Shown here one piece after another: positions 7,881 to 26,929 of a stretch of DNA of 38,093 nucleotides. The translations under genes and the position numbers were made by a program. How positions within the stretch are numbered: position 1 is the first letter of the stretch; the number at the start of each line of letters is the position of its first letter. The stretch comes from an uncultured bacterium. GTDB taxonomy: Bacteria > Patescibacteriota > Gracilibacteria > Absconditabacterales > Absconditicoccaceae. The notes beneath the pieces were generated by a model. That model was not told the DNA's origin. It was given only the letters and a program-made list of their open reading frames with translations, and did not search any database. The stretch lies in the NCBI GenBank assembly GCA_947168815.1, contig CAMVNG010000011.1, forward strand, positions 1 to 38,093, written 5' to 3'.

Positions 7881-8000
7881 AAAAAAAACTGACTCTACTT
7901 ATCTCAAGCAAAGCCAGCGAAATGCAAATTAATTGTAAAATTTTTATTGCGCTGCGATTCAGTGCAATTTTCTTATAGCTTTTTATTCATAAAATTTCAA
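7881..8000 (-). ncRNA. Small RNA unit E3 (TTGAGATAA-loop family), RNA about 7965-7881
   Basis: Promoter TTGAAA (7995-8000), 17 nt, TATAAG (7972-7977); predicted start about 7965. A GC-CTG/CAG-GC hairpin follows near the 5' end (7945-7965 region). The 3' end is a 12-bp stem with G-U pairs (7889-7917) carrying the family loop TTGAGATAA, then eight T. The unit lies between traX and the 7108 gene. Confidence 0.8.
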
Positions 8001-8090
8001 TATTAATTATTTAGTTTCCTTATATTCCAGATCCAAAAAATACTTGTAAGAGATTAAATCAGATCTAGGTAAGTGTTAATGAGAAAATAT

Positions 8091-8900
8091 TTAGAATCCT
8101 AAGCATAAAAGTATTCAGATTATTAGTGCATGGAGAGGATAGAATGATATGTATAGATATCTGAACCATTTTTCATGGTATCATAATTTTCCATTTGATA
8201 GACTTAGTACTAGAGCTGCGATAAAATATCATCATATCCAAGGAAGATATTGTCACATATATTCGATTAATCAAGTCATACTAGGAAATTTTCCTTTTAT
8301 CCAGAAATATAACGGTAAATATACTACAAATATTCATAGTAATACGAGAAAACGTATTATTCGATTTCGATTATTTTTTGTTTTATCTTCATTTCTGGCA
8401 TATCTTAAATATCGGTAGTATGCGATTGCAAGTAATGGTCATACAAAGTTAAAGTTTGCTGCCATGATATAGTTTGTATAACCAATTAATAGGTATGAAC
8501 ATATAATAACGGCGATACTTTTTCGTTTAATTTTTTCATTATTTTCTTTATTTGATGGAAAGAGTAATTCTGTTATTATCATTCATAAGAATCATAATAG
8601 GAGTGTTATCATAACACTTTGTGAGGTTGTGAATTTTTCTAGAATATTTGGTCAGAATTCTAATAAATCATAACATGGCTCTGAAATTACAGCTAATATT
8701 ATTAATGTTCAAATGTGTTTTAACAGTCTTCTTTTTTCTTTAAATACGAAGAAAAATCATTCTGCTAATAAAAATGCATAACAAGGAAAAGCTATTCTTC
8801 AAATCCATGTTAATAGCATTTGATTATCAATAAAGTTTCGTCCAATATGATCTGCCAACATGGTTAGCATTGCTATAATACGGATTATGAATCAACTCAT
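8091..8900 (-). CDS. TraX-family membrane protein, 269 aa
   Basis: ATG at 8900, TAA at 8091-8093, TGA as Gly. It has 7-9 hydrophobic segments. The start (IIRIIAMLTMLADHIGRNF) and end (YISFYPLHALIIGILLC) match the TraX family, where the N-terminal Asp-His and C-terminal YP-H are typical. In F plasmids TraX acetylates pilin; chromosomal homologues are thought to be integral membrane acyltransferases acting on surface molecules. No other conjugation gene is near, so a surface-modification role is more likely here. It stands between a terminator and small RNA unit E3. Confidence 0.8.
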
Positions 8901-8955
8901 TTTAATTATTTTGAATAAATTTTTTTTAATATAGTTATGTTTTTTTAAAAATAAA

Positions 8956-8987
8956 GAAAAAACAGAATTTTTCAATCCTGTTTTTTT
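8956..8987. terminator. Terminator downstream of the 9001-9906 gene
   Basis: AACAG-AAT/AT-CTGTT arms around TTTTCA have an A-run on the left and seven T on the right, so it can work in both directions. Its position suits the minus-strand lipoprotein gene. Confidence 0.7.
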
Positions 8988-9000
8988 GATGTATTATATT

Positions 9001-9906
9001 CTAGTAGAAGAATTGATAATTAATTGATTTTGTTGGCTTTTCTACAGTTGCTGCTACGAAATTAAGTGTAACTGGATCAACGATGTAGAGAATTTCAACT
9101 TTTGATCCATCCTTAAGAGTTGCTTCAGTATCTGTATAAATCATTCCATCTTCAATTGCAGAACTTAATATTTCTCTTGAAACCATTGCAGCATGTTCAG
9201 GGATTAATAAGCTGTGTGAAATTCCTTCGCTATAATCTGTTTTTCCTTCATCTCAAGCTTCATCTTTTTCTCTATCATATGTTGAATAGCTATATCCTTT
9301 TGGAAAATTAGTTTCTGCTAAATCATCTAATTCTTCATTTGTAAGAGATAATTTTGCTCATTCTGGTAATTCTACATCAATAATGTCATCTTCTTCTTGA
9401 TTGTTTGTTTCTTGAAGGAGTCTTCCTTGGTCATATTCTTTTACATTAGTTACTTTACCTTCTTCATCGTATGTTGTCCATAATCCTTCTTTAGCTCCAT
9501 TTACATAAATTCACATTTCTCTAAGAGCTCAGTTGTCATAAGATGAGAAGAATTCTTCATATTCATCATTTACAACTCTAACAACTCCTGTAATTTTATC
9601 ATTTTCTTCAAGAGTTTCGATTGTTTCATTTATAGCATCTTCAGTTAATTCATTTCATGCTTTAATAAGTACAACATTTGTTCAATCTAGTTGTTCTATT
9701 TCTACGTTTCATAAGAAAGCTGATGATAAAGTATTTAATTGATCAATGTCTTCTAATTCTAAGTCTTGTGCTGTTCTTGCAACTAGAACAGGATGGTAAT
9801 CATTTTCGATTACTTCTTCTTCGATAGTTACTTCTTCTTTATTTCAGCATCCAGCAAGAAGTGCTCATGCAAGTAAAATTACAGATAAAGTCCAGAGTTT
9901 TTTCAT
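9001..9906 (-). CDS. Lipoprotein with one MORN-like repeat, 301 aa
   Basis: ATG at 9906, TAG at 9001-9003, TGA as Gly. A clear lipobox (LLAGALLAGC) puts the lipidated Cys at about residue 20. After an acidic stretch, residues about 130-160 contain a MORN-like repeat (NGAKEGLWTTYDEEGKVTN). The rest is unrecognised. It is likely attached to the outer face of the membrane. Small RNA unit E6 ends about 81 nt upstream. Several conserved-looking Gly positions, such as the lipobox Gly, are TGA. Confidence 0.8.
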
Positions 9907-9986
9907 TTGTGTGTTGTTAAATATAAAACTTATCTTTACTATATAAAAAATTTCTTATAAAATAAAAGTAATATTTAAGGAAATTA

Positions 9987-10087
9987 TAAAAAAAGCCCTC
10001 CGTTATCTCAACGTAGGGTTCTGTCGGTTAATAGAATTTCTAATACTTGACGGGGATTACTATATCGATTTGTCTATTTGATTTCAA
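9987..10087 (-). ncRNA. Small RNA unit E6 (TTGAGATAA-loop family), RNA about 10052-9987
   Basis: Promoter TTGAAA (10082-10087), 17 nt, TATAGT (10059-10064), starting only 13 nt past the crcB stop. The 3' hairpin (9995-10019) has a different stem from E1-E3 (CCCT-CGTT/AACG-AGGG) but the same TTGAGATAA loop context, then a run of T. RNA length about 66 nt. Confidence 0.78.
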
Positions 10088-10099
10088 TATGATACTTTA

Positions 10100-10477
10100 T
10101 TAATTTCGATAGTTATTTACTAGTAGTTCTGCTCAAAATACTGCTAGAATTGATAATATTACACTAAGTATTATGTATGTAATTCACATCCATATTTTTC
10201 AGTTTTCAAATAGTGTTAATGATTCTAATGCAAAGGTAGAAAATGTCGTAAATCCTCAGCAAAATCAAACCTTTATTAGCAGTATTAATTGTGGGTTTAA
10301 AGTGCTATTTTTTAGACTGATTGCAATAATTAATCCTATAATAAAACTTCAAAGGATATTAATTATCAGCGTATTAATTGGAAAATTTCATACTGTGTCT
10401 ACTTTAATTAATCCAATTAAGTATCTTAGAATTGATCAGATGAATCATCCTGTTCAAACTACTAATATATTAATCAT
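10100..10477 (-). CDS. crcB: Fluoride ion channel FluC/CrcB, 125 aa
   Basis: ATG at 10477, TAA at 10100-10102, TGA as Gly. It matches the family end to end: GTGGFIGSILRYLIG near the N-terminus, FPINTLIINILGSFIIG, then GFCGGFTTFSTFALES, with four TM helices and the usual 120-130 residues. FluC forms dual-topology dimers that export fluoride. TGA supplies conserved glycines (GGFIG, GFCGG, NILGS). The gene lies between small RNA units E5 and E6. I see no fluoride riboswitch upstream; the unit there (E5) shares its hairpin with units beside unrelated genes. Confidence 0.92.
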
Positions 10478-10534
10478 GATGTCTTTTATGATTTTAAATA
10501 TGAGCAGTATATGAATTTTTATTATTTTTTAAAT

Positions 10535-10637
10535 AAAAAAAGGCCCCACGTTATCTCAACGCGAGGACCTAGCACATACCTAATGTGATATAATCACAAG
10601 ACAATATTGTTATATCTTTTTATATATTAGTTTTCAA
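10535..10637 (-). ncRNA. Small RNA unit E5 (TTGAGATAA-loop family), RNA about 10602-10535
   Basis: Promoter TTGAAA (10632-10637), 17 nt, TATAAC (10609-10614). The RNA has a GTGAT-TAT-ATCAC hairpin near the 5' end and a GC-rich terminator stem (10542-10569) with the TTGAGATAA loop, then seven T. It follows E2 directly in tandem, with no gene between, and ends 58 nt before crcB. Confidence 0.8.
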
Positions 10638-10655
10638 TATAAGTCTTTTTATTTT

Positions 10656-10761
10656 AAAAAAACTGACCTCATTTATCTCAAACAAGGCCAGCGAACGCAT
10701 ATTCTACTTGCTTACTTTTACTAAGCAATTATTATATACTGATTTTATATTCTGATTTCAA
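10656..10761 (-). ncRNA. Small RNA unit E2 (TTGAGATAA-loop family), RNA about 10726-10656
   Basis: Promoter TTGAAA (10756-10761), 17 nt, TATATA(AT) (10731-10738). The 5' hairpin is TTGCTTA-GTAAAAG-TAAGCAA. The terminator is a 12-bp stem (10663-10691) with loop TTGAGATAA and seven T. Compared with E1 and E3, several stem positions change on both sides and keep pairing. The -35 box begins 6 nt past the stop of the upstream gene. Confidence 0.82.
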
Positions 10762-10766
10762 GTGTC

Positions 10767-11198
10767 TTATTTTTCTTCTGGTTTTTTTAATTCTACGATA
10801 TCTTCAGCTCTAGCTCATCGTTTATTCATTGAGAATACAAAGATAACAACTGAGAAATTAATTACTCAGATTGTTGCGATGATTTTCCATAATAGATCTG
10901 ATTGTTTGTAAGCATCCCAAATTAATACACAGATTAATAATGAAATTAATGAGATGCTGATAATTAATAGCCAGTTTCCAATTGAAGCTAATTCTGGATA
11001 ATATTTAAATTTATCGTATAATTCATGGGTTGATGAAATTCAAAGAATTGATAGGAATAATACAATATAAGTAAGAATTGTACGAGAAATAACATCTCCA
11101 TCAATGTCTCCCCAAATTGAGTAGATTCCTAGGATTGCGAAGATTACTGCTCCTGTTATGGCAAAATAAAGTAGGATGTTTTTAACTGTTTTATTCAT
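10767..11198 (-). CDS. Four-TM membrane protein of unknown function, 143 aa
   Basis: ATG at 11198, TAA at 10767-10769, TGA as Gly. Four hydrophobic helices (about 8-28, 42-60, 75-95, 105-125) end in a charged tail (KRGARAEDIVELKKPEEK). Not recognised. It sits between a bidirectional terminator and small RNA unit E2, so it is probably transcribed alone. Confidence 0.75.
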
Positions 11199-11273
11199 TT
11201 TTTGTGAAGTGTAAAAAATAAATTTATATAACTATAGTAAAATTTTTAAAAATTAAAAGAAAAAGTAATTTTT

Positions 11274-11312
11274 TTAAAAAAAATCAGCTCTTTAAGGAAC
11301 TGATTCTTTTTT
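11274..11312. terminator. Bidirectional terminator
   Basis: AATCAG-TC/GA-CTGATT arms around TTTAAG have A-run and T-run flanks. It serves the minus-strand gene ending at 11326. Confidence 0.75.
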
Positions 11313-11325
11313 TATATTTTTATTG

Positions 11326-11781
11326 TTAGAAGTTAATAATGCTTCAGTCTTCTAAAACACATGCTCAATCTGTCCATTCTCATCACATATTTGCGCATGA
11401 TTCTTCTGCTATTGCTTGGGTTTCTTCTTCAGTTTGTCCTTCAAGAACTCTTAATTTAGGTGCAGCTTCTGCTACTTGTGTTTCTTCTTCAATATTTTCT
11501 TCATCTTCAATTTGTTCGTTGATTTCTTCTGGAACAGTTAATTCGATGTCTCAATCAGTACATCTAGGTTCTTGATATTCATCACAATACATCATTGTAC
11601 ATGTTGCTACTCAAGCTTCATCTTTTGAACAGCTGTTACATCCATCAAAGAATCCTACACAGTCTTCTGGAATGATTTCTTTCCATGAATCTTTATTATA
11701 TGCTGGTTCTTTTTTATTACAACCTGCTAAAAATACTGTTGCTAATCATAGGATTACAGCAAGACTTAAAATTTTTCTCAT
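11326..11781 (-). CDS. Cys-rich lipoprotein with a DUF333-like C-terminus, 151 aa
   Basis: ATG at 11781, TAA at 11326-11328, TGA as Gly. The lipobox (ATVFLAGC) puts the lipidated Cys at about residue 21. A Cys-rich part with eight closely spaced Cys follows, then an acidic linker. The final segment (SCANMGGEWTDGACVLEDGS) resembles DUF333 (C..-GG-.., C.L.DGS). Three of its glycines are TGA. Probably an extracytoplasmic protein with disulfides. It lies 32 nt after the 11814-12383 gene on the same strand, so an operon is likely. Confidence 0.75.
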
Positions 11782-11813
11782 AATTATTATTTAATAAATA
11801 AAATGTAACTTAA

Positions 11814-12383
11814 TTATTCTGATATATTATTTGATTCATCATATATTTCTTTTATGTCTATTCCATCAAGATTTACTTCTTTAGTATTTCAGTCTTCATC
11901 TATTAATACTCATTCAGTTTTTCAATCATGGATTTCTCATGAGTATGAAAAATCTTTTCAATCTTTATTAGTTCAGTTAATCTTTATTGTTCCTCATTCA
12001 GCTCAATCACTTCGTTCTCAGTTTACATTATATGAAGATTCTGCTCAGTTGTTGTTTGTTGAACTATAATATTTAAATGCTCATTTTGCGTTTTGATCTC
12101 ATTTAATATCTTCTATATCTTCAAAATCTATTTCATCATCAAAGTTTTTAAATTCTTTTTCCATGTTTCTGAATTCTTTTTCCATTTGTTCTTCTTGATG
12201 TCTTAGTTCATCAAATGGATTTCTTTGTCTATCTTTTATGTGGTGTTCATATCGTAATCCTGGAGCTCTTTCTTCTATTGCTCATTTATGGAACTGGTGA
12301 TTTGCTAAGAAGTATCATCAAATTCCGCCAATAATGAACAATAATACACATAGAATAACTCGCTTTAGCGTTGATGATTTCAT
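11814..12383 (-). CDS. Membrane-anchored coiled-coil protein with a Gly-rich C-terminus, 189 aa
   Basis: ATG at 12383, TAA at 11814-11816, TGA as Gly. One N-terminal TM (VILCVLLFIIGGIGGYFLA) is followed by a charged helix (residues about 55-85, RHQEEQMEKEFRNMEKEFKN) likely to form a coiled coil. The C-terminal half is rich in Gly and Asn, mostly TGA-encoded, with alternating polar residues suggesting beta strands. Not recognised. Promoter not evident. Confidence 0.75.
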
Positions 12384-12526
12384 TTGCGTTACATTAAGAA
12401 ATAAAAGAAAGTTTTTTTAATAGAGTATATTATATTTTTATCAATGGTTTTTTCTATACTATTTTTATTTATTTTTGTTTTTTATTCTTTAATGTATAAT
12501 ATTATTGTATTTATTTTTGTAGTTAT

Positions 12527-13027
12527 ATGATGGACATTTTTCTTACACTTTATTATAATCTAGAGGATCTTCAATATTTAACAAATTGGATGTTATCAAT
12601 TATTTTCTTAATATTTGCAATTTTGCTTATTTGTTGAATTTTTTGATTAATGAAGAGAATTAAAAAAGATAAATCTTTGTCAATCTCTCAACATATTAAA
12701 AAATTTATAAAAGATTATCGCTATTTATTAATATGATTTTTGCTATTTTTGACTAATTTTATGCAGGTTTCAATATTGTATGAAATTATTGATAAATTCT
12801 ATTATAATTTTGTTGAAGTTATTCAATCAAAAAGCGATATTCTTCCTGATTGGTATTTTTGACTATATTCTATGAATTCACTTTATGTATTGATTATTAT
12901 TACATTGGCAATTCTTTTGATTTGAATTTCTTTTTGAAGTAAAAAAATCCTCATACCATGAATTGTAATCTATATTTTATGAATTATTGTTGCTTTTGCT
13001 GTGCCATATTTAGCTTATATTTTTTAA
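12527..13027 (+). CDS. Multi-TM membrane protein of unknown function, 166 aa
   Basis: Open from ATG 12527 (a second ATG follows at 12530) to TAA (13025-13027), TGA as Gly. About four hydrophobic helices are separated by a basic loop (KRIKKDKSLSISQHIKK). No family recognised. A TATAAT lies at 12496-12501 but the -35 is weak. The DUF2207 gene follows 62 nt downstream on the same strand, so the two may be co-transcribed. Confidence 0.7.
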
Positions 13028-13089
13028 TTTTTTATTGAAGTTATTTTAACCTTTAGTATAACGTCTATAGTTTATTTTTCTTTGATTCA

Positions 13090-15603
13090 ATGAAAATAAA
13101 AAGTCGGCTTTTTCTGATAGTTTTTTCTTTGTTTTTTGCTAATTTTGCAGATGCATTCACAGTAGATAAATATAATTTAGAATGAGATATTCTAAGTGAT
13201 TGAACTATTAATGTTCATGAGGATATTGCTGTTGATTTTAGTGATTGAGCGTTACATTGAATTGAAAGAATTCTTTCTAGAAAATATACGGTCTTAGATA
13301 CTATTTTTCAGGTTTTTTATGATAATATTAACGTTATTAATGATAATTTTACAACTTATAATGATTATTGGTGAGATACTATCGTTAGAATTTGAGATAA
13401 AGATATCTTATTAGATTGAAAACATTCTTATGATATTAATTATTCAACATATTGATTGATTAAGAGTTTCTCTTGAATGTGATATTCTGAACTTTATTGG
13501 AACGTTATTTGATATGAATGGGATGCACCTATTCATTCTCCTAAGATAATTATTAATTTACCAAAAGCTTACAGCTGATTTACTGATGAAGATTTTATTA
13601 TTAGTCTTTGATTTAATCAATATCATAATATTCATGAATTTCCATGAGAGTTTTCATGGGATGAAAATAAGATTTATATTAATTATACTTGAGTATTAAA
13701 TCCTTCTCAGTGAATAACTTTATCAGTTAGATTTCCTAAAGATTATTTTGAATTTGATCATGAAAAACAAGCAAGTCTTTTTTATGATTATACGCGTGCT
13801 TTTAAAATTCCTTTGGTTACACTTACTTGAGTTGTACATAAGAACTGATATATTGATTTTAATGAAACTTTTAATGTAGATTGGTATAAACCTGTTTATT
13901 ATTTTTGGTGAAAGCTTCCTTTTAGATTTAATACTGATTATAATCCTTATTTGATTTATTTAAGTGGATTACAAGTTAATTGAGTAAATATTAGTCATTC
14001 TAAATATGATATTAATAAATACGATCAGAGCTTTGATTTGAGAGATATTGCATCTTCTGGTGATGTTTCTATTGATTATACTATGTATTGATTAATTAGA
14101 AATTTCACATGAGAAGATGAGGAGTGGACAAATAAACTTTATCTTCCATTACCTTTATTTGAATTAGATCAAACTCCAGAAGATATTAATCTTGCTTTGC
14201 AGTTTCCAGAATCAGAATTTCCTAATGTTTGTTCTTGAATCTATAAAGAGGACATTGAATTCTTAGTATGATGAAATCCTTATACTATCGAAGAGTTTTA
14301 TGATAATTGATGAGAGCTCTGGTGTGAGAATAATACACTTTATTTAAAATGAAAATGAATTTTTGCGTGAAGTAGCGATTTTATTTGAGTTAGTCTGATT
14401 GATTTTTGATTTGAACTTGATGAAAAATTACTTGATGCATTAGGTAATTTATGAAATTGAGAATTCTATTTTAATGATGAAATTAATTGGCAATCTATTT
14501 TATTATTGCTTTGAACCATACTTACGACGTGATGATTAATGACTTTAATGAAGAGAAGATATAATCTTTATTGAAAGGATAAATTGAAATATATTGTTGA
14601 ATATTGAGCTCCAAAATGAATGGATGCTCCTGAAGCTTGAGCTCTTATTGATGATGTTATTAATTGAAAAGATATCACTGCTTTAATTTATCAGTGGGCT
14701 GCTGCATGATATATTAAAATATTAAAAAATCCTAAAGATGAAAAGAGGTTCTATATTAAAAAAATTAAATATTTACCTTTAAATTCTAAGGAATATCAGT
14801 TAAAGTTTTTCAATAAGCTCTTTGAAAAAAATGATGAATTTTATTTTCCTTGAGCTATATCTTCATATTGAGAATATTCTGAATTTAAAAAAGTTATTTC
14901 TACTGCTAAGTCTTGATTAACGACTTATATTGATAGCCAGGATTGGTATAATACGAAATTAGATTCTGTGAAATCTGAAAAAAAGAGCTTTAAAAGTACG
15001 AATAAACATCTTGTTTGATGGACTGCTTTCTTGTCTGTAATTTTTTTCAATATCTTTGTTGCTACTATTAATTCATACTTGAAACCTGTTTGGACTTGAA
15101 ATATTTTATTCTGATTTATTTGATTTATTCTTATTCTTAATTCATATAGATTTAAAGAAAAGAACGTTTATACAGAGAAGGGTGATGAGCTATTAAAACA
15201 GATTAAATGATATAAAGATTTCTTAAAGAAGGTTGATAAAGATAAGTTTAAAGTACTTACAGATGAAGATCCTTTGTTTGTCGAGAAAGCTTTACCTTAT
15301 GCTGTTGTCTTCTGACTTGATACTAAATTTATTAAATATATTACTCCTGAGGATGTTCAATGGCTAGGTTGAGATATTGATGTATTAGAAGATTCTTTGT
15401 CTTATATTTCAGAAGCTGTTAATACGTACTGAGTTGCTCCTTATTATTATTCTCCTTATTCAAGTAGTTCTTCTAGTTCTTGGAGCTCAGGTTCATCATA
15501 TAGTTCTTATAGTTCTTCTTCATGATATAGCTCTGGATCATCATTTGGAGGATGACATTCTAGTTGATGAGGTTGATGAGGATGAGGTGGTAGATGATGG
15601 TAA
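13090..15603 (+). CDS. DUF2207-type membrane protein with a Ser/Gly-rich tail, 837 aa
   Basis: ATG at 13090, TAA at 15601-15603, more than 70 in-frame TGA read as Gly. Order: signal peptide (1-22), a large extracytoplasmic beta-rich region beginning in DUF2207 style (LSDGTINVHEDIAVDFSDGALHGIERIL), a TM at about 470-490, a cytoplasmic region, two TMs near 640-680, a cytoplasmic domain and a low-complexity tail from about 785 that is first Ser/Tyr and then almost pure Gly (GGHSSGGGGGGGGRGW). That order and the Gly-rich end are typical of DUF2207 (YciQ-like) proteins. The function is unknown in all bacteria. Six of the ten or so tail glycines are TGA. Confidence 0.87.
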
Positions 15604-15620
15604 AATATTATTTAATATAA

Positions 15621-15655
15621 AAAGCATTGGGAATTTAGATCTCAATGCTTTTATT
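15621..15655. terminator. Terminator between DUF2207 and budA-like genes
   Basis: A 12-bp stem with one mismatch (15621-15632 with 15640-15651) and a T-run on the plus side; the A-run to its left makes it partly bidirectional for the converging gene. Confidence 0.85.
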
Positions 15656-15674
15656 TTTATAAGAAATTAATTTA

Positions 15675-16469
15675 TTATTTTCCTTGTTCTACTTCTTTAA
15701 TGTCGTCTTCTTGATTAACTGTTAAATCAAGTGATTTGAAGAATTTTCATTCTGGTAAATGAAGTTTGAAGTTATCTGTAAAATCCCATGTTACTGTTCC
15801 TTCATCAAAGCTTAGGTTTAATACATGTCATCCTTCAGTTTTATCATTTGTTATGAAGTGGAAATGCCATCCAGCAGCATTTAAATCACCCATATAGTCA
15901 GGTGTATATAATGCAACAACAGTTCCTTCTACATTAGTTAGTTTTTTCTCTGTTTGGTCTACTCTCAATACATCTACTAATGGTTTATATGGTTCTTCTT
16001 GTTTTCTTTCACTTCTAATATGCATTTCATCAAAGTTTCATGAAAGAGTTATGAAGTAGAATCTATTGTTTCAAAGTTCTTCTATTTCTCTATCTAATTC
16101 AGCTTTAAGTTCTTGAATATCTCTAATGTGTTTTATTTGATATTTAAGGTCGTTATCAAAGAATGTTACATTTGCGAATGGAATTAATTCATCATCTGAA
16201 GGAATCTCAATTGATAAATCTTCGTTAGCTCTATAGATTGTTCCATTAAGCATAATCAATTCTCAATTTAATCCATCGAATGTTCCTAGACCTGTGTCTC
16301 CTAATTTTTTAACTTCTTTAATTGGTTTAGATCCATAATAGTCTCCTAAGGTTAGACCTTGAAGTAATGAAATCTGATTTAGTGTTTCATTGTCGCTAAC
16401 TTTACAGTTACACCCTGTCAATACTAAGCTGGCAATTACTAGAGTTGTTAAGAGTCCAAGTTTTTTCAT
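15675..16469 (-). CDS. budA: Acetolactate decarboxylase, predicted lipoprotein, 264 aa
   Basis: ATG at 16469, TAA at 15675-15677, TGA as Gly; under the standard code this splits into three separate frames. Family motifs run in order: LLQGLTLGDYYG (about 34), GLGTFDGLNGELIMLNGTIY (about 60-80), IPFANVTFF, VEGTVVALYTPDYMGDLNAAGWHFHFI and GGHVLNLSF. The His-x-His and the later His are the family's zinc ligands. The enzyme turns acetolactate into acetoin. A strong lipobox (LVLTGC) places the enzyme outside the cytoplasm; secreted forms are known in some Firmicutes. No acetolactate synthase or butanediol dehydrogenase is nearby. Confidence 0.9.
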
Positions 16470-18565: not shown

Positions 18566-18594
18566 TTTTTATTGACATTTTTTAAAATTATTTA

Positions 18595-18969: not shown

Positions 18970-18987
18970 TTATCTATCGTCGTTTAA

Positions 18988-19017: not shown

Positions 19018-19091
19018 CATTTTTATTGAAATTGTATTGTTGAATTATATAGTTTATTTATTAAACAAAAATTAATAGAAAGGTTTAAGTT

Positions 19092-19454
19092 ATGGATAAG
19101 AAAAAATTTTTAATGGAAGTTAAAATCTATTACAAAGGTTTGCTTTCAAAAGAGAATGACATTGGTCATCTTACTCTTGAACTCTTAATTGATAAGAAGT
19201 TAATTAAAGATCCAAGTTCATTTGTCCTTGTAGAAACTTCAAATTCTTATGAGGTTGAGGGAGAAAGAGATACTATTCCTGTAGGTATCGTTAAACTTAA
19301 TTGCATTGTCTCTAAAGTTGTTAAGTCTGAGAACATTCAGAGTCGTTATGATGCAAGCTTCAATTACAGGTTGGATAATGGCGTAGCGACATTTAGAACG
19401 AAAGGTCTTAATGTCTTTGTTCAGTATGGCATGCCTATTCCAGTAGAAGCATAG
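19092..19454 (+). CDS. Small protein using only GGN for Gly, 120 aa
   Basis: ATG at 19092 with Shine-Dalgarno GAAAGG, TAG stop. Promoter TTGAAA (19026-19031), 16 nt, TATAGT. All seven glycines are GGN. Length, start (MDKKKFL), internal spacing and C-terminus (YGMPIPVEA, compare FPMPVEE of the preceding gene) suggest a distant relation to the 104-aa protein. Function unknown. Confidence 0.83.
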   Translation: MDKKKFLMEVKIYYKGLLSKENDIGHLTLELLIDKKLIKDPSSFVLVETSNSYEVEGERDTIPVGIVKLNCIVSKVVKSENIQSRYDASFNYRLDNGVATFRTKGLNVFVQYGMPIPVEA

Positions 19455-19474
19455 TTTATTCTCTATTAAGATCT

Positions 19475-19506
19475 AAGGAGCTTAGATTTCTGGCTCCTTT
19501 TCTTTT
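19475..19506 (+). terminator. Terminator of the 120-aa gene
   Basis: Stem AAGGAGC/GCTCCTT (19475-19481, 19493-19499) and a T-rich tail. The stem sequence nearly repeats that of the preceding gene's terminator, which supports duplication of the whole gene cassette. Confidence 0.85.
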
Positions 19507-19509
19507 ATA

Positions 19510-19538
19510 TTGAATTTAGAATCTTGAATATTTATAAT
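19510..19538 (+). promoter_or_regulatory. Promoter of the 82-aa gene
   Basis: TTGAAT (19510-19515), 17 nt, TATAAT (19533-19538). Confidence 0.75.
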
Positions 19539-19577
19539 GTTATTGTTAAACAAATAAACCAAGAGAAAGGATAATTT

Positions 19578-19826
19578 ATGGATGAATTAAAAGTTACTAA
19601 GGATTTAAGGGAAGAGGTCCTCAAACATTGTGACTCTTTCGATTATTGTGGACGTAATTTAGCTTATTTCTCGTCTAAGAATAAACGCAATATTACGTTT
19701 GCAATTGCTGCTGTTTTAAAAGCTAATCCAGTATTTGTAGTCTCTGTAATGGAGACAACAAAGGGTGAGGACTCTAAGTTAGAAACGACGGTTCAATTTA
19801 CACAAGTTGGATTTACAGGCGGATAA
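19578..19826 (+). CDS. Small protein using only GGN for Gly, 82 aa
   Basis: ATG at 19578, Shine-Dalgarno GAAAGGA, TAA stop. Five glycines, all GGN. The N-terminal half is probably helical (LREEVLKHCDSFDYC), then a hydrophobic stretch (FAIAAVLKANPVFVVSVM) and a Thr-rich beta end (TTVQFTQVGFTGG). The final Gly-Gly codons and the stop lie inside the terminator hairpin (GGCGGA-TAATT-TCCGCC, 19818-19834, then T6), so gene end and terminator are fused. Third in a row of single-gene cassettes. Function unknown. Confidence 0.8.
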   Translation: MDELKVTKDLREEVLKHCDSFDYCGRNLAYFSSKNKRNITFAIAAVLKANPVFVVSVMETTKGEDSKLETTVQFTQVGFTGG

Positions 19827-19840
19827 TTTCCGCCTTTTTT
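19818..19840 (+). terminator. Terminator overlapping the end of the 82-aa gene
   Basis: GGCGGA/TCCGCC 6-bp GC-rich stem whose loop holds the TAA stop codon, followed by T6. Confidence 0.9.
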
Positions 19841-19865
19841 ATATGAGAAAATATACTTAATATTT

Positions 19866-20753
19866 TTAATCTACATTAATTAGTTCATATTTAGTTGATC
19901 ATAATCATAAGCTTTCAGAATATTCTGTAATATGTCTTCATTCTCTTCAATCAATTCTTTCTTTTAGTGCTTGAGTTCCTTCTTCGTGTGTTGCCCATAT
20001 TGCGTCAATAAATGCTTGATCGTTAGCAACAGGATCTAAACTAGCAAAAATTCAGATATCTGCTATTACTGGATTTCCTTGATGAGCGTCACAATCACAT
20101 TCTAAACTTATAGCATTAGCAACAATGATATAAACGATTGGCTTATTATTTTCTTTTAGATAATCGGCCACAGCAGTTGCTGCTTCTCACATTGATTCAA
20201 TAAAATCTGCTTTTTCAAATTTAGCATTCCAACATTCAACTGGGTCTTCAGTCTGTCAACATGAGTGGATATAAGCTTTTCAATTACGTGAAGCTATTCA
20301 AATTGATTGATTTTTAAGGTTTGCTCAGAATCCTCACATCATATGTCATTTTCAGTGAGCTAGATTTAAGATACTATCATAATTTTTAAAATTTTCTCAA
20401 ATGATATCATATTTTAATCGTTTTCATTTCTTTACCGGAATTTTAAATTCTCATTCAGCATCCATAATGTCGACATCAGCAAAAGATGTGAATCAGTGTT
20501 CTTCTGCTACTTTCATGTGTTCTTCAGCATCGTTTCTTGCTCATGGATAGGCTATATTACATTCAATAATTGTTCAGTTTAATTTCTTTACTAGTGGAGC
20601 AATTAAATCTGCTTTTAAATATCATTTTGATCATCTTTCTCATGTAGAAACTTTTACTCATACTTTTCATTTTAGTTCAACTCATAAAATCTCATACATT
20701 TTAATAAGCGATTCTGGTGTAATTTCTTTTGTGAAATAGACTTTTGATGCCAT
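19866..20753 (-). CDS. DUF362 protein (uncharacterised Fe-S centre family), 295 aa
   Basis: ATG at 20753, TAA at 19866-19868, TGA as Gly. It matches DUF362: KVYFTKEITPESL start, GVKVSTGERGSKGYL, IIECNIAYPGARNDAEEH, LAHGKGHMMGGFGANLKNQSIG and a Cys-containing part (SLECDCDAH). Most of the diagnostic glycines (GHMMGGFGANLKN) are TGA. The family is often fused to ferredoxin domains and thought to bind an Fe-S cluster; here I see no ferredoxin CxxCxxC module, only a few Cys. Role unknown. Confidence 0.85.
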
Positions 20754-20932
20754 GAGAATAGTGATTAGTAAATAAAATATGATTACTAATATAAAAATGT
20801 TATGATTAAGTCTAATAATTGCAAACAAAAATTACTTGTAATTTAAGATTTGAATAATTATCTTTTATAAAAATAAAAATGGGTTAATCAATGAAGCCTA
20901 AGATTCATTGAATAAAAAATACAAAAAGCAAT

Positions 20933-21244
20933 ATGCATACTGCATTAGATTCTATTTCATTTGGTGGCCCACCTTGGGTTGAATATTTGTTTTTCATCTT
21001 GATATCATTTACTAATGTATTCTTGCAGAATTTGAAGAATATCTTCTTAATAAAATCAACGAGATTTAAGGCTGCTTTGGTTGGAATGGTTACTTCAATA
21101 TTCTATGCAACAGTAGTTGTGATGATAGCAAAACACGGATGGATATCAGTCCTTATTGTTGCTGTTACACATTTCTTAGGAATATTCTATGCAAGAACAG
21201 TTAGTGATAATCTTGAGAAAAAAGGATTATTGAAACAAAAATAG
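20933..21244 (+). CDS. Three-TM membrane protein, UPF0316/DUF5698-like, 103 aa
   Basis: Reads from ATG 20933 to TAG 21242-21244. An in-frame ATG at 20891 would add 14 residues including one TGA=Gly; I keep the shorter start because every other Gly here is GGN. The hydrophobic pattern and the N-terminal YLFFILISFTNVFLQNLKNIF segment resemble the small DUF5698/UPF0316 family, but the match is by eye. The stop codon overlaps the first base of the terminator stem. Confidence 0.65.
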   Translation: MHTALDSISFGGPPWVEYLFFILISFTNVFLQNLKNIFLIKSTRFKAALVGMVTSIFYATVVVMIAKHGWISVLIVAVTHFLGIFYARTVSDNLEKKGLLKQK

Positions 21245-21271
21245 GTATGGAGAATTTCCATACCTTTTTTT
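21244..21271 (+). terminator. Terminator of the 103-aa gene
   Basis: Perfect 7-bp stem GGTATGG/CCATACC (21244-21250, 21258-21264) with loop AGAATTT, then seven T. Confidence 0.9.
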
Positions 21272-21292
21272 ATATTTAAAGTGATTAGTGAA

Positions 21293-22108
21293 TTATAGTG
21301 ATTCTAACCATTCTTGAACATCTTCTTTTGTTGTTTTAGAATCGAATTTTTTAGCTCAAACTACATTTAATCATTCTCATTTTATTTCAGATTCACTTGC
21401 TTCGATTCATGTTTTATCTGCAGTACAGAATAGTACAACTTCTTTACCTGAGAAATTATTATTTTCTACTAATGTTTGTATTATTTTAGGGTGAGATCAC
21501 CACCAAATAGGATATCAAATGTAGATTCTATCATATCAATCTAAATCAATTTCTGTTTCTATTCAAGGTCTAGCATTTTTATCATTTTGTTCTAAATTAG
21601 CTCTTGAATTGCTAGTATAATCCAAGTCTTCATCTGTGTATGGAACTTCAGGAACGAGTTCGGTGATATTCCCTTCTGTGATTTCTGAAATGTATTTTGC
21701 TATCCTTTCTGTGTCTCCTGTAGGAGAGAAATAGAGGATTAATGAGTTAAGTGTTTTTAAATTATCTTCGAAAGGTAAAATTGTAACTGTCTCATCAGTC
21801 ATGTCTACTACACATTGAACCTTTTTTGATACTGCTTCTCAATTTTCTTGGAATGTTACTACTCAGTTTAGAACATATGAAGCTCATGCTTCTTCTTCTG
21901 TATCCCATCCACCTCAAAATGTTTTGACGTTATAGTATTTTACAACTTCTTCATTACATGCAAGTAAACGACCTGAATCAGTGTTTATACTTGGTTTATC
22001 TTCGTCAACAACACTGCTATTGTTTGTGATGTTAAGATTAAATTTAAAACATCATGTTAGTAATAATGAAGAAAATAATACCATAGCTAAAAGTCAGATT
22101 TTTTTCAT
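21293..22108 (-). CDS. Flavodoxin-domain lipoprotein, 271 aa
   Basis: ATG at 22108, TAA at 21293-21295, TGA as Gly. Lipobox LLLTGC gives a lipidated Cys at about residue 20. After an N-terminal domain of about 95 residues comes a flavodoxin fold: LILYFSPTGDTERIAKYISE (FMN phosphate loop, about residue 122), YTDEDLDYTSNSRANLEQND, DRIYIGYPIWWGSHPKIIQTLVE and VVLFCTADKTG. The YPIWWG motif is typical of the Flavodoxin_4 type. A surface-exposed FMN protein suggests electron transfer outside the cytoplasm. Confidence 0.85.
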
Positions 22109-22214
22109 TTTTTGATTTTTAGTGTTAAATAAAATTATAATGTTTAAATTATTTCTTCTGTTTATGGAAGATAATGGGTATTTATATTTTTCCTTTTTTG
22201 ATATTCAATAAAAT

Positions 22215-22517
22215 TTAAACTCAAAAAAGTTCATTATAGGTTTCATTAATTAATTCCTTTAGATAATCAGAATTATCTACGTTGTCTACGTATATCATTT
22301 CTTTTGCTCAAGGATAAGGTATTTGCATTTCTAAGTTATTAATTAGCTTTTTTACCTTATCAGTAGGCTTCAATAATAAACGGTTATCATAGATTCATCA
22401 AATGATTTTTCAATTGTAATACAAAATATATTCGCCCATCATTTGACGATATGTTATGTTATCTAAATCAGAAATCTGATCTAAGATATATTGTAAATAA
22501 TCTTTTGTTGTAGCCAT
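22215..22517 (-). CDS. TfoX N-terminal domain protein, 100 aa
   Basis: ATG at 22517, TAA at 22215-22217, TGA as Gly. It matches the TfoX_N domain: start YLQYILDQISDLDNITYRQMMGEYILYYNGKIIGGIYDNRLLLKPT, then PYPGAKEMIYVDNV and a final helix. In gamma-proteobacteria TfoX/Sxy controls competence; single-domain versions are widespread with no clear role. Only 2 nt separate its start from the stop of the ZIP gene, so they are co-transcribed. Confidence 0.82.
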
Positions 22518-22519
22518 AA

Positions 22520-23317
22520 TTATTTTATATCAGCAATATATTCTTGATGTATTGGGGTATTATCATCTTCTGAGTGTTCGTCTCATTCAGTTAATGTTAA
22601 TCAATACATTACGATAAATCCTATCAAAAGTAATATAATTTGATGAATTGAATGCTTTAAATCACTTTCTTTTTGAAGCTCTGGTATCATATCAGAGGCT
22701 GCGATATAGATAAAGAGTCATGCTGAAAGAGGAGTTAATATCGAAGAAATTCAATCAACATATGCACTAAGTAGATATGCTATTCATAATCAAATAAAAG
22801 CAGTTAAAGCTGTTAAGAAATTATAAAATAGTGCTTTTTTTCTTGATAATCATCAATGCACTAAAACACAAAAATCTCAGATTTCTTGTGGTATTTCATG
22901 AAGGATAACAGCTAGAGTAGTTGCTAATCATAAGTGAAAATCAACTATGAATGCAGATCCAATAATTATTCAATCTATACTGTTATGTACCATATCTCAA
23001 ACAAGATTCATCCATGCGAATGTTTTTATTTCATGTTCTTTACCATTACGTTTAACATTTAATATCTTTTCGATAATAAATCCAATAAAGATTCAGCATA
23101 TTAGACATCATGATATTAGTAGAGAAAATCAGTTTTCTTCTACAGCTTCTGGTAATAGATGTAAGAAGGCATCTCATAATAAAATACCTACAGAAAAAGC
23201 AATAAAACATACAAAGAAATGCTTTAATTTTACCATAGGAATTGAAATTACAAATATTCCTACTAAGGACATTATACTTACAATAAGTACTGCGATGATT
23301 CAATAAAGATATTCCAT
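22520..23317 (-). CDS. ZIP-family metal transporter, 265 aa
   Basis: ATG at 23317, TAA at 22520-22522, TGA as Gly. Eight TM helices and both metal-binding signatures: HNSIDGIIIGSAF in TM4 and ILHEIPQEIGDFCVLVHGG in TM5, plus FLHLLPEAVEE early. ZIP proteins bring zinc, iron or other divalent metals into the cytoplasm. It forms an operon with the zinc-ribbon protein upstream (24 nt gap) and TfoX-N downstream (2 nt). Confidence 0.92.
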
Positions 23318-23341
23318 GATTATATTATTAAAATAAATTTT

Positions 23342-23614
23342 CTAATTATTGCATTTTGAACAGTGTTCTACGTGTTTATTTTTTCGTTTAATGAGAGTTC
23401 TTGATGAAATTTTATGTTCATCTAAAACTTCTTTAGCAGTTTTGTGTTGATGACAGTATTCATCCATAACTCAATCAATAAAAGACTGATTGTAATCTTT
23501 TTTTAGTCATCATATGGTAAACGTTGTATTACAATCGTGACAGAGATATCTTTGAGTATGGGTGGTAGATCCATACTTAATGACATGCTCTCAATTACAT
23601 TTTTTACAGTTCAT
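23342..23614 (-). CDS. InsA-like zinc-ribbon/HTH protein, 90 aa
   Basis: ATG at 23614, TAG at 23342-23344, TGA as Gly. Residues 3-33 are a zinc ribbon (CKKCNGEHVIKYG ... YLCHDCNTTF) of the IS1 InsA N-terminal type, followed by an HTH-like part (TAKEVLDEHKISSRTLIKR) and a last Cys pair. No insB transposase or IS ends are visible, and the length matches InsA alone. Heading an operon with ZIP, next to a three-iteron operator (23622-23665), it may be a domesticated regulator of metal uptake. That is inference. Confidence 0.75.
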
Positions 23615-23621
23615 TAAAAAC

Positions 23622-23665
23622 CAACAGATGTAAAATGTTTTACATGTGTTGTTTTACATTTGTTG
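23622..23665 (-). promoter_or_regulatory. Three-iteron operator upstream of the zinc-ribbon/ZIP operon
   Basis: Three 14-bp copies: CAACAGATGTAAAA (23622-23635), then inverted TTTTACATGTGTTG (23638-23651) and directly repeated TTTTACATTTGTTG (23652-23665). The first two form a near-perfect palindrome. It begins 8 bp upstream of the start codon at 23614, the position expected for an autoregulatory operator. Beyond it, 23666-23798 holds no gene; an 8-bp palindrome CCCGCGGG (23771-23778) stands out in the AT-rich context. Confidence 0.7.
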
Positions 23666-23798
23666 TTATTAAAATCAAGAGTATTTTAAATAGTCAATTT
23701 TTCGAATTTTCGTCATAAATATTTTAAATGTCAACCTTCTCGAATTCAATTGGTCTTAGTGGAATCAGCTCCCGCGGGTAGACGTAAATGACAACTTA

Positions 23799-23828
23799 TT
23801 GACATTTGATTATAAATTAATATATTAT
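23799..23828 (+). promoter_or_regulatory. Promoter of the 91-aa gene
   Basis: TTGACA (23799-23804), 18 nt, TATTAT (23823-23828). The -35 is full consensus. Confidence 0.7.
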
Positions 23829-23868
23829 AGCCCTATCAAATACAAAACTATAAAATGAAAGGATAAAT

Positions 23869-24144
23869 ATGGAGCTGATTTGTTTTAAAATTCAAAATGA
23901 TGGGGTAGAGGGGTTCGAGAGACAAGACTCTACTATTGACTTGGTTGTTAATCAGATTGGAGAGGAATCAATGACTGTTAGCAGTAGGAAAGTTGTCTTT
24001 CATAACTGCACCATTCGGAACCTCGATACCTTGAGTGACAATTACAACACTTACTTTTCAGTCTATGATAGTTTAGATTCTAAGAGTGTTGTAGTTGAAT
24101 CAAACAAGTATGATTTGATTAAGGTGACCAGGAAAATCGATTAA
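23869..24144 (+). CDS. Small protein using only GGN for Gly, 91 aa
   Basis: ATG at 23869 with Shine-Dalgarno GAAAGGA, TAA stop. Own promoter and terminator. Its three glycines are GGN (two GGG, rare in recoded genes here), with CGG, AGG and CTC codons also richer than in the neighbours. Probably a soluble beta-strand protein (ESMTVSSRKVVFHNCTI). Same cassette style as the 18655-19826 genes. Function unknown. Confidence 0.82.
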   Translation: MELICFKIQNDGVEGFERQDSTIDLVVNQIGEESMTVSSRKVVFHNCTIRNLDTLSDNYNTYFSVYDSLDSKSVVVESNKYDLIKVTRKID

Positions 24145-24173
24145 TAGTGGCTATTTTAGCCACTATTTTTTTA
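24143..24173 (+). terminator. Terminator of the 91-aa gene
   Basis: Stem AATAGTGGCT/AGCCACTATT (24143-24152, 24158-24167) overlapping the stop codon, then T-run. Confidence 0.9.
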
Positions 24174-24201
24174 AAAAAAGTGTACACAAATTTGTGAACA
24201 C
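24173..24201 (-). terminator. Terminator of the 98-aa gene
   Basis: GTGT-CAC/GTG-ACAC stem (24180-24201) with a central mismatch and, on the minus strand, seven T (A-run 24173-24179). It sits back to back with the previous terminator. Confidence 0.85.
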
Positions 24202-24218
24202 CTTTTTAGAAGATCCTG

Positions 24219-24515
24219 TTAGTCATAGATACATTCTGGCATGTTTAGATATACATCACCATACCCACTACTTACATTAAGCTTCCCAGCTTCTGTAACA
24301 TTGATGTTGAAAATGTTGTTCCAATCCGGAGATGAGGCATTACTTATAACCTCGTAGCTTTCAATAAAGATATTCAAGCAATTGTTCTCCATAAAAAATG
24401 CACCATCAGGAATACCAATCTCTTTCCACCTCGTTGGATTGATCTTAAGTGTGAGAATCTTTCGATTACCACTCTTAAATTCAATTCTAAATCTCAAAAT
24501 AAACTTCTTATTCAT
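24219..24515 (-). CDS. Small protein using only GGN for Gly, 98 aa, paralogue of 18655-18969
   Basis: ATG at 24515, TAA at 24219-24221. Promoter TTGAAA (24582-24587), 17 nt, TATAAC (24559-24564). All six glycines are GGN. It shares with the 104-aa protein the pattern KKFILRF, LTLKINP, KEIG, IESYEVISNASS-W. The start has no evident Shine-Dalgarno, unlike its relatives on the plus strand. Convergent with the 91-aa gene. Function unknown. Confidence 0.8.
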   Translation of the reverse strand: MNKKFILRFRIEFKSGNRKILTLKINPTRWKEIGIPDGAFFMENNCLNIFIESYEVISNASSPDWNNIFNINVTEAGKLNVSSGYGDVYLNMPECIYD

Positions 24516-24636
24516 ACATCAAGGTTTAAGTTAACATATTTGTTTTTTGTCACTTGAAGTTATATTCAATCAGATTTGTGATTTCAATAAGAAAACGACA
24601 TGCTGATTTTTTTATTAGTTTAATTGTTTTTTGAAT

Positions 24637-25026
24637 CTATTTTTTTGAATATTTTGAGTCATCAAATGCGAGTATTGCCATGAAAATAGGATTCAAGAAA
24701 GTAATTAGTAATCATAGACCGAATGCCCAGTGTTTACCGAATCTTCATGGAATTTTAAAGAATGAAATGAAAAGAATAATAATTCCTAGTGGAGGTAAGA
24801 TGAATGATAAAATCCACCATCCTGACATTCAAGAAGTTTTAAATCGAAGGTAGATATTATACAAAGGAATTAATGATCCCCATCATGGATGTCATGCTTT
24901 TTTGAAGATTTTCCGCATACATATAACAACCCATATGATTGCTAATCATGCCCACAATCATGTTTCTGAATTAAACAGGTCTGTAATTGCTGGGAATTCT
25001 TTGAATCAAAAGCTGAATTCAGGCAT
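24637..25026 (-). CDS. DUF5684-type membrane protein, 129 aa
   Basis: ATG at 25026, TAG at 24637-24639, TGA as Gly. It is a minimal version of the N-terminal domain of the 5677-6999 protein: KKAGHPGWGSLIPLYNIYLRFKTSGMSGWWI, then hydrophobic helices and FMAILAFDDSKY, which matches FMAILAFGDYKYEE of the larger protein. About three or four TMs. Small RNA unit E1 ends about 79 nt upstream. Function unknown. Confidence 0.82.
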
Positions 25027-25104
25027 TTTTGTTGTAGTATAAAAATAAAAGATATCTTTTTTTGTTTTATAATTTTCTTTTTTAGATAATCAATTTTATT
25101 GTTT

Positions 25105-25213
25105 AAAAAAACTGACTCTACTTATCTCAAGCAGAGCCAGCGATGTTGAATTTCACTTTAACGGCTAATTTACTTAGCACTATTTTTATACTGATTTCTA
25201 GTTTTTATTTCAA
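25105..25213 (-). ncRNA. Small RNA unit E1 (TTGAGATAA-loop family), RNA about 25178-25105
   Basis: Promoter TTGAAA (25208-25213), 17 nt, TATAAA (25185-25190), 6 nt after the stop of the paralogue gene. A GCTAA/TTAGC hairpin lies near the 5' end. The terminator (25112-25140) is a 12-bp stem with G-U pairs, loop TTGAGATAA, then T-run. The stem is identical to E4 and differs from E3 by one base. Confidence 0.82.
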
Positions 25214-25218
25214 TTAAT

Positions 25219-25968
25219 TTATTCGTTTACTTTTAGAAGTAGTTTTCATTTACAATCATTATCTACACAATAGATAAATGCTGATAAACCAAATTGACAG
25301 TCCCACCGAACGCGAGATTTTTCCTTTCAATCAACATTTTTATCTTTTAACCAAAAGGTATCATCTAATCATAAAATTGATTTTAAAGCCTTTCATATTT
25401 TACATTTCTCTTTTTGAGTTTCCCAGTATTTTAATTCTTTCTCATAATCCATACCACAATCTTCATGTAAATCTGATTCTTCTATAAATTTTCTAAGAGC
25501 GTCCATTAATTCACAGATTTCTTTTAGTGTGTATGATTGTTTTTCGAATTTTGATTCTTTCTTAAATAGTGGTATTTTTTCAAAGGTTCCTTTAGTTATA
25601 GTATCATTTGAAACAAAATAAGAAAATTTAAATCATTTAAAATCTCATACTTTAGGTAAATCAAGTGTTACTATTTTCCCTTTAACTCAGAACATTTCTT
25701 GATTATTAATTGTTCTTACATTGTATTCTCTTATATCTCTTATTATTTGTTCTTCTTGCATTTTAATTCTTTTTTCCATTTTAGCTCATATTTCTTTTCT
25801 CCATTTTTCTTTCTTTTCTTTTATTTTAGCCTCAATTTCATCACTAATATTACCAATTTCTTCATTTGATACTGAATTTAAATTTTCTAGTAATTCTTGA
25901 GATTTTAATTTTTTTCAATCTCATTTCTTTCCTATTATTATGTGTTGTGAAGTATTAATCGATTTCAT
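25219..25968 (-). CDS. Paralogue C of a three-gene family of unknown function, 249 aa
   Basis: ATG at 25968, TAA at 25219-25221, TGA as Gly. The first 40 residues (INTSQHIIIGKKGDGKKLKSQELLENLNSV) are shared with paralogues A and B; a charged helix follows (about 45-80), and the C-terminal part (LKSILGLDDTF ... KGKLLLKVNE) aligns with paralogue A (LKEILGLDSTY ... EGKLLIKRDD). The start overlaps the end of paralogue B by 14 bp, so the two are translationally coupled. Soluble, no known motif. Confidence 0.78.
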
Positions 25969-26740
25969 CGAGGATATTGTTGTCTAAAAGCTTAAATTTC
26001 TCTTGAAGTAATTCTTTAGATCTATTACCACTATCAAATAGTGAATCAGAGTATGAATGAAGTATGGTAACAGGCCAATCACGTAATGTGTTCTCAGACT
26101 CCCAATTGATATTTGAATCATCTATTCAATTAGGAGCGGCAACTTCATAAGTATCTAATTTATCATTATAATTAACATTAATTCAGATGATATATTTTCA
26201 TCTCACTCAGCTTGGATAATCAGTTCAATAATTAGAATGAATATATAGATACACTTTTCAATCTTTTTTTGGTAATATCGCTGTTGCAAGATCACATGGT
26301 CTAAGATTGTTTTTAGACATCAGAATTTTTTCTAATTCGTATCAGATTTCTTCACTATTTCATCTAAAACCATTAATTGTTTTATATATTCTCTTACAGA
26401 TCTTTCTATCTATTTCTTTGTGTAATTGTTTAAGACCTTCTGGAGATTTAGATAGCTTATCAAATCTTTCCATTATTTCATTTTCTTTATCTTCTATTTC
26501 TTCTTTTTCTTTTTGTATTCTTTTCTCTTCATTTTTTTGTGAGTGTTCTAAGTTTTGTTGTCTTAAAATTTCTTTCCTAGATTTATTTTCTTCTACTAAT
26601 ACTTCTAATTCACCTCAAACAGCTTTAATATCGTCTGTTGATACTGAATTTAAGTTTTCAAGTAATTCTTGAGATTTTGATCCAGTATCTCATTTCTTTG
26701 GTATTATAATGTGATGTAATGTATTAATATTTTTAACCAT
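25955..26740 (-). CDS. Paralogue B of a three-gene family, with long coiled coil, 261 aa
   Basis: ATG at 26740, TAA at 25955-25957, TGA as Gly. The N-terminus (INTLHHIIIPKKGDTGSKSQELLENLNSV) is shared with A and C. Residues about 45-95 are a strongly charged coiled coil (EEKRIQKEKEEIEDKENEIM). The C-terminal half (about 125-261) is specific and differs from A and C. A conserved N-terminal tag on different C-terminal parts suggests a shared docking or recruitment signal. E4 ends about 82 nt upstream. Confidence 0.78.
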
Positions 26741-26821
26741 AAATATGAAAAGTATTATAAACAGATTAATTATATATTAAAATATGGAAGAATTCTAATT
26801 TTTAATAAGATTTTAATAAAC

Positions 26822-26929
26822 AAAAAACTGACTCTACTTATCTCAAGCAGAGCCAGTCAAGCTTATGTCACTTAATAAATTTGCTGAAGACAGCGCTAAT
26901 ACTATAAAGATTTTACTTTTTATTTCCAA
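26822..26929 (-). ncRNA. Small RNA unit E4 (TTGAGATAA-loop family), RNA about 26894-26822
   Basis: Promoter TTGGAA (26924-26929), 17 nt, TATAGT (26901-26906), 5 nt after the stop of paralogue A. GCTG/CAGC hairpin near the 5' end; terminator 26828-26856 with the TTGAGATAA loop and five T. It lies between paralogues A and B. Confidence 0.82.

Follow-up and report, generated by a model that had tools for sequence, protein, structure and literature searches.

The 38,093-nt contig CAMVNG010000011.1 of an uncultured bacterium of the Absconditicoccaceae (assembly GCA_947168815.1), referred to here in its full length as the window, carries six short transcription units, E1 to E6, which probably encode trans-acting small RNAs (sRNAs) that would cover the start codons of their target mRNAs, resembling in action the csRNAs of streptococci while standing outside that class. 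Each unit has the makings of a complete sRNA gene, with a strong sigma-70-type promoter and a predicted RNA of ~65-100 nt in which an unpaired linker joins a 5′ hairpin to a rho-independent terminator with a GNRA-like cap. Action in trans is the likeliest mode: the linker CAU found in about half of the units would pair with the AUG and the flanking AU-rich leader of mRNAs and thereby block the start of translation. As the copies multiplied, their linkers would have diverged so that each acquired a target set of its own, and the cap would have been retained, perhaps because it stabilises the 3′ end or serves as a docking point for an RNA-binding protein distinct from Hfq. Of the mechanisms considered, this csRNA-like action is the best supported.

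The six units all lie on the minus strand (E3, 7881-8000; E6, 9987-10087; E5, 10535-10637; E2, 10656-10761; E1, 25105-25213; E4, 26822-26929) and follow the fixed design that an earlier note on this DNA had described. The −35 element is TTGAAA except in E4, which has TTGGAA; all six spacers are 17 nt long, and the −10 element is TATANN in every case (TATAAG in E3, TATAGT in E6 and E4, TATAAC in E5, TATATA in E2, TATAAA in E1); in E3 the two hexamers occupy 7995-8000 and 7972-7977. With the start taken 6 nt after the −10 element, the RNAs measure 66-85 nt, in agreement with the ~65-85 nt proposed before. A GC-rich stem followed by a T-run, as expected of a rho-independent terminator, closes all six, the terminators lying at about 9997-10018 (E6), 10541-10570 (E5), 10663-10691 (E2), 25112-25140 (E1) and 26828-26856 (E4), and in E3 the stem extends over about 7889-7917 with a GAGAU cap and a T-run reaching to 7881. 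The apex of each terminator is UUGAGAUAA, and the window contains the string TTGAGATAA 10 times, six times as a unit apex, always on the minus strand and within a long stem with a T-run, and four times without a T-run within 26 bases past the string. Predicted folds bear out that a 5′ hairpin is common among the units, its sequence being variable and the structure weak or differently placed in some; E3 has one, E2 forms UUGCUU..AAGCAA, E1 forms GCUAA..UUAGC, and E6 contains the hairpin-forming GUCAAGUAUUAGAAAUUCUAUUAACCGAC. Transcription of the units is thus predicted from their promoters and terminators.

The window is contig C11 of a genome of 1,294,114 bases in 18 contigs (G000; 99.74% complete), and its genes, when decoded with table 25 (TGA as glycine), give clear Pfam matches. 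A covariance model built from the six window units (R1) recovers them with E values from 1.9e-13 to 3.9e-10 (E1, 1.9e-13; E4, 2.1e-12; E2, 1.6e-11; E3, 2.6e-11; E5, 6.2e-11; E6, 3.9e-10) and identifies two further copies on contig C1 of G000 at 63060-63184 and 63735-63846 (E about 2e-4), as well as a weak match on C2 that turned out to be a variant with the loop GUGAU. The two C1 copies are on the plus strand, so that the shared orientation of the units noted earlier is a property of the window and does not extend beyond it. The search of related genomes suggested at that time does yield copies, in five of 49 family genomes (G000 with 8 matches, G014 with 13, G015 with 3, and G034 and G040, which represent a second genus, with one each). 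A wider model of 26 units (R2), applied to 15 chosen genomes at E<=0.5, gives 11 matches in G000, 25 in G014, 19 in G015 and 1-3 in each of five second-genus genomes, with false matches among the weaker ones, and none in the other seven. From 59 matches at this stage, 11 were discarded by eye before any CAU was counted, as other RNAs, other caps or weak matches (L055:1239, L148, L151, L142:2027, L057:3500, L154, L152, L143:1397 and three of L153), and one of these, L154, would have scored as CAU-bearing. The 48 accepted units, which include all 26 of R2, comprise 11 from G000, 17 from G014, 13 from G015, six from the second genus and one from a phage contig. A further unit, L054:3788, which has another loop, was added by hand as unit 49 for the scans of neighbouring genes and of attC and CiaR motifs but not counted for CAU.

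A pattern scan of species genomes returned 37 stretches, which were rescored with R2 together with five viral stretches; only the G014 stretches and the viral contig L131 exceeded 43 bits, five others reached 24-31 bits, and R2 found no match at E<=1 in the rest. A scan of the phylum found units in the genome of origin only, of 379 genomes, which is weak evidence of absence given its stricter filters and the 10 candidates scored per genome. Contig L131 (IMGVR_UViG_3300001531_000312 in IMG/VR) has 4,458 bases with code-25 genes and carries a DNA methyltransferase-like gene, a terminase pair, a unit and crcB, its terminase large subunit being 78% and its CrcB 74% identical to those of the window. 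A second phage contig, L191, encodes a terminase that shares 87% identity with its L131 counterpart over the part present, and has a weaker copy of the unit (48 bits, E 3.9e-5), which appears to be flanked by head genes as judged by eye from their translations. These two are the only ones with an R2 copy at E<=1 among the 19 terminase loci searched (80 were fetched).

The stronger functional clue, overlooked in the earlier note, is the fixed position that a CAU takes in the linker. This complement of AUG stands 5-11 nt before the terminator stem in 26 of the 48 units, compared with 9.4 expected from dinucleotide shuffles and a maximum of 16 in 400 of them, and when all 64 trinucleotides are tested in windows of the same width the runner-up is far lower. 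CAT is likewise the most enriched trinucleotide, though mildly so, over the last 30 nt ahead of the terminator. Weighting the linkers by 35 sequence clusters gives 17.7 against 5.8 expected (maximum 12.2 in 300 shuffles), and among terminators picked by their loop alone, with neither promoter nor model and largely from the same DNA, CAU is present in 15 of 36 as against 10 of 149 others. Within the window, E1 has its CAU 5 nt and E4 11 nt before the terminator, and the E3 linker TTTGCATTTCG also includes an anti-AUG CAU.

In some sets of orthologues from different genomes, the linker is preserved and the bases of the 5′ hairpin have changed. The clearest set consists of L033:7736 in G000, L138 and L054:7213 in G014 and L137 in G015, in which at least five U before the CAU are preserved; the U-run with CAU is the antisense of ATGAAAAA, a start found in 39 of 357 open reading frames (ORFs) in G000, where ORFs and starts, here and for neighbouring frames, were called with the author's own scripts and no gene finder. 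The seed of L033:7736 would face the start context ATGAAAAAA, and its pairing with starts encoding MKK is the best in-register candidate and the only one to stand out, equalled in 2 of 60 shuffles. The E5 linker AUAUCACAUUAGGUAUGUGCUA is mostly preserved in L139:8635 of G015. E1 is an exception, as it matches its G014 partner, L055, better in the 5′ hairpin, which the two have in common, than in the linker.

The choice of the AUG as the site to cover is consistent with the translation signals of this genome. In the 438 kb of G000 scanned for terminators and targets, about a third of the genome, a Shine-Dalgarno-like 4-mer lies at −20 to −4 of 7.3% of the 357 ORF starts, compared with 2.5-5.6% after shuffling, and GGAG or GAGG precedes 1.7% of them; Shine-Dalgarno sequences are thus nearly absent upstream of G000 start codons, which suggests that the AUG, rather than the Shine-Dalgarno sequence, would be the landmark for an sRNA.

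Several results weigh against start-codon covering. When position is disregarded, the enrichment of CAU is mild (36 of 48 units have one within 30 nt of the terminator, with 28.9 expected), and 22 of the 48 have none at 5-11 nt, including E5, whose CAU lies 17 nt ahead of the terminator and so outside the usual place, and E2 and E6, which have none near it; moreover, the units share descent, so that the shuffles overstate significance somewhat. When linkers were compared in register with 514 candidate ATGs of the 357 ORFs, which cover about a third of the genome, no target stood clearly beyond those of shuffled seeds, the scores of most G000 units falling within the shuffled range and those of E1 and E4 being beaten by most shuffles (51 of 60 and 58 of 60). 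Duplex energies against the 357 starts (12 shuffles per unit) give slight outliers only, namely E3, E5 and L135, and linker seeds paired with the starts of neighbouring genes reach p<0.05 in 3.9% of 180 pairs, no excess over chance. The GNRA-like cap, for its part, could be kept simply for stability.

Known sRNA systems offer partial parallels to the units. Enterobacterial Hfq-dependent sRNAs are short, carry a rho-independent terminator at their end and pair at start regions; the units are similar in length and terminator, whereas a search of the 49 family genomes for Hfq gave no hit, its control being positive in 5 of 14 named genomes. Listeria LhrC and Vibrio Qrr are encoded by several paralogous sRNA genes, some of them in tandem, and the units share both the paralogy and the tandem copies; kinship was examined via Rfam, in which nothing in the window matches at gathering scores, and ten fetched loci searched at E<=1 returned two hits only, STnc40 and snoR27, both below cut-off. 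The closest resemblance is to streptococcal csRNAs, which are described as RNAs of 51-202 nt from several related genes per genome, often with two stem-loops, and with an unpaired region that carries CAU as an anti-AUG in 53 of 61 together with anti-Shine-Dalgarno sequences (PMC3091779). The units likewise occur in multiple copies, and two predicted stem-loops flank an unpaired CAU-bearing region. They differ in that their promoters are plain sigma-70, a CiaR-type repeat (two TTTAAG) turning up in two of the 98 scans made of the 49 units with 60-nt flanks on either strand, and also in that Shine-Dalgarno sequences are nearly absent here, the terminator cap rather than the linker is conserved, and phage contigs carry copies. 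As control by CiaR defines the csRNAs, the units are not filed among them.

The terminator is the other distinctive part of the units. Its stem bases vary in a compensating manner, as had been claimed from the six window copies: across 26 units, both members of 11 of the 12 terminator pairs have changed, standard pairs make up 93.9% of cells, and a covariation score of 0.724 compares with 0.218 in shuffled and at most 0.189 in slid alignments. The loop, previously called invariant, is so in the six window units but not across the family, where the 48 units have GAGAU in 34, GUGAU in 11 and GUGAC, GUAAC and GUGA in one each, a tally that arises partly by construction since the script sought GNRA-type loops and copies with other loops are under-detected. 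The closing pairs vary as well (UU..AA in 41, CU..AG in four, and UC..GA, UA..UA and UU..AG in one each). Read from the letters by the author, the loop seems to be GNRA-like with an extra 3′ pyrimidine rather than a fixed string. An orthologue of E6, L054:3788-3892 in the G014 array, has the loop UAUCU and no cap. This UAUCU is complementary to AGAUA of its neighbours' loops and possibly pairs with them loop to loop, as a single case; kissing between loops was rejected as the reason for loop conservation, the pattern being GNRA-like with a varying second base.

Two scans of the 438 kb of G000 place the cap among short transcription units. In the first, the motif was flagged in 17 of 163 terminator-like hairpins and judged by eye to be at the apex in 10, all of which are family units (L136:2078 was overlooked). 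In a stricter scan, which overlooked three known units (E6, L034:2001 and L136:2078), 8 of 103 strong terminators carry the cap, and a strong promoter lies 45-130 nt upstream of all eight, compared with 5 of the 95 others. The data support the conclusion that the cap is a feature of short transcription units and not a general terminator habit in the scanned third of the genome. The suggestion that the loop serves recognition rather than plain termination holds insofar as the cap is specific to the units; a protein or another RNA may recognise it, but a GNRA-like fold would be explicable by stability alone.

These properties of the cap are the basis of another explanation, in which the units are free-standing sRNAs that act through the terminator loop as decoys or scaffolds for an RNA-binding protein via a U-GNRA-Y-A cap, the linker being of minor importance. 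Across two genera and the phage contigs, only the promoter is better conserved than the cap, which is rare in the other scanned terminators and also ends an unrelated 166-nt RNA of G014, G015 and G034, as GAGAU in the first genus and as GUGAU in the second, a division that the units tend to follow. GNRA-like loops, however, widely serve as stabilising caps, the orthologue L054:3788 has none, and the fixed place of the CAU and the linkers preserved in some orthologue sets are left unexplained, which makes this explanation unlikely. The 166-nt RNA itself, a separate and conserved one, lies on the minus strands of L148:2821-2989, L151:2135-2300 and L142:2021-2192, with promoter-like sequence of its own ahead of the capped terminator. 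Its fold has a z-score of −3.2, it has no Rfam match above cut-off, and the other 46 of the 49 family genomes contain no full match at E<=0.01, with matches of 24 bases only in two of them.

The position of the units relative to genes raises the question of whether they are cis-acting leaders or attenuators of the genes downstream. A gene on the same strand follows 58-82 nt past the terminator of five of the six window units, and crcB is preceded by a unit at 57-58 nt in the window (10100-10637) as well as on phage contig L131 (3121-3669). Yet contig C14 of G014 carries a tandem array of four complete units within 424 nt, in which the next −35 element begins just beyond the preceding T-run, E2 and E5 likewise lie in tandem with no gene between them, as observed earlier, and six of the 49 units (L135, L058, L054:7901, L140, L061 and L139:7153) end 0-120 nt from an ORF of at least 89 amino acids on the opposite strand. 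The leader or untranslated-region reading was rejected on the array and the opposite-strand frames, which instead favour the free-standing units that the earlier note proposed; nor does any riboswitch family score above its cut-off in the window. Cis action is quite improbable. A crcB fluoride riboswitch was rejected for want of an Rfam match in the window.

A function at the level of DNA, with the hairpin and the spacing serving as recombination sites or mobile cassettes of the integron or integrase type, would fit the two tyrosine recombinases and two terminase genes of the window and the arrangement of four of the six units, which begin in one orientation just past a stop codon, at 4 nt (E4), 5 nt (E1 and E2) and 12 nt (E6), close to the 5-13 nt given before. 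The preserved promoter hexamers, 17-nt spacing and T-run would nonetheless be superfluous in a DNA site, and both strands are used by units elsewhere. The ends of attC sites follow the paired consensus RYYYAAC ... GTTRRRY, and attC or cassette sites were rejected as this pair is found in none of the 49 units with their flanks on either strand. The DNA-level function is very improbable.

A comparably remote idea is that the units are guide RNAs of a novel RNA-guided system with the variable linker as the spacer, for which the conserved 3′ scaffold, the variable linkers, the tandem copies and the copies on phage contigs could be cited; the fixed place of the CAU and the conservation of linkers between species nevertheless suit mRNA starts better than spacers. 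Tandem RNA units are also known as the TIGR-Tas arrays, which occur in phages and in parasitic bacteria (PMC12045711); the units here differ in that each has its own promoter and terminator.

Beyond the trans-acting, start-covering sRNAs proposed here, a broader possibility is held only tentatively, namely that this code-25 lineage may possess an sRNA system of its own, in which dozens of horizontally spread, phage-shared, AUG-covering RNAs would be tagged by a U-[GNRA-Y]-A 3′ hairpin for a novel RNA-binding protein, with the same tag on the unrelated 166-nt RNA. With its several copies and an anti-AUG at a set position, in genomes where Hfq was not found and Shine-Dalgarno signals are nearly absent, the family would allow a test of how sRNAs find and block starts when neither the customary chaperone nor the customary ribosome-binding signal is present, and the phage-borne copies could mean that phages use these RNAs against, or for, their host. 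Searches of an open-access library, judged by titles and the beginnings of abstracts, turned up no work on regulatory small RNAs of Absconditabacteria, Gracilibacteria or the Candidate Phyla Radiation, and sRNAs are not mentioned in a paper on phages of these bacteria that was searched by term (PMC10746230).

The genes around the units recur in part with them. The CrcB-family gene (10100..10477, minus strand) has E5 58 nt upstream and E6 downstream, and a TraX-family gene (8091..8975, minus strand) lies upstream of E3, with relatives in G014 and G015 (65% identical) that also adjoin units. The third gene upstream of E4 encodes a phage terminase large subunit (27902..29251, minus strand), relatives of which are found near units in contig C14 of G014 and on L131. 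The region 27902-38093, labelled here a phage-like or integrated element beside the units, contains two terminase large-subunit genes in opposite orientations, one of them cut by the contig end, together with a terminase small subunit, two tyrosine recombinases and C-5 DNA methylase, ParB_N and radical SAM genes.

Another terminator-like hairpin recurs at L064:6607, L143:1516 and 1637, L152, L153:7960 and L061:5415, with CAC-AGCG-GUG as its core; some of these hairpins stand behind a TTGAAA-17-TATA promoter, and they are perhaps another class of short RNAs. Three adjacent genes at 25219-27635, none with a Pfam match at the curated cut-off, have a repeated start region (repeat D1) that is 62-71% identical to the reference copy, with E4 located between two of the three and E1 following the last one.

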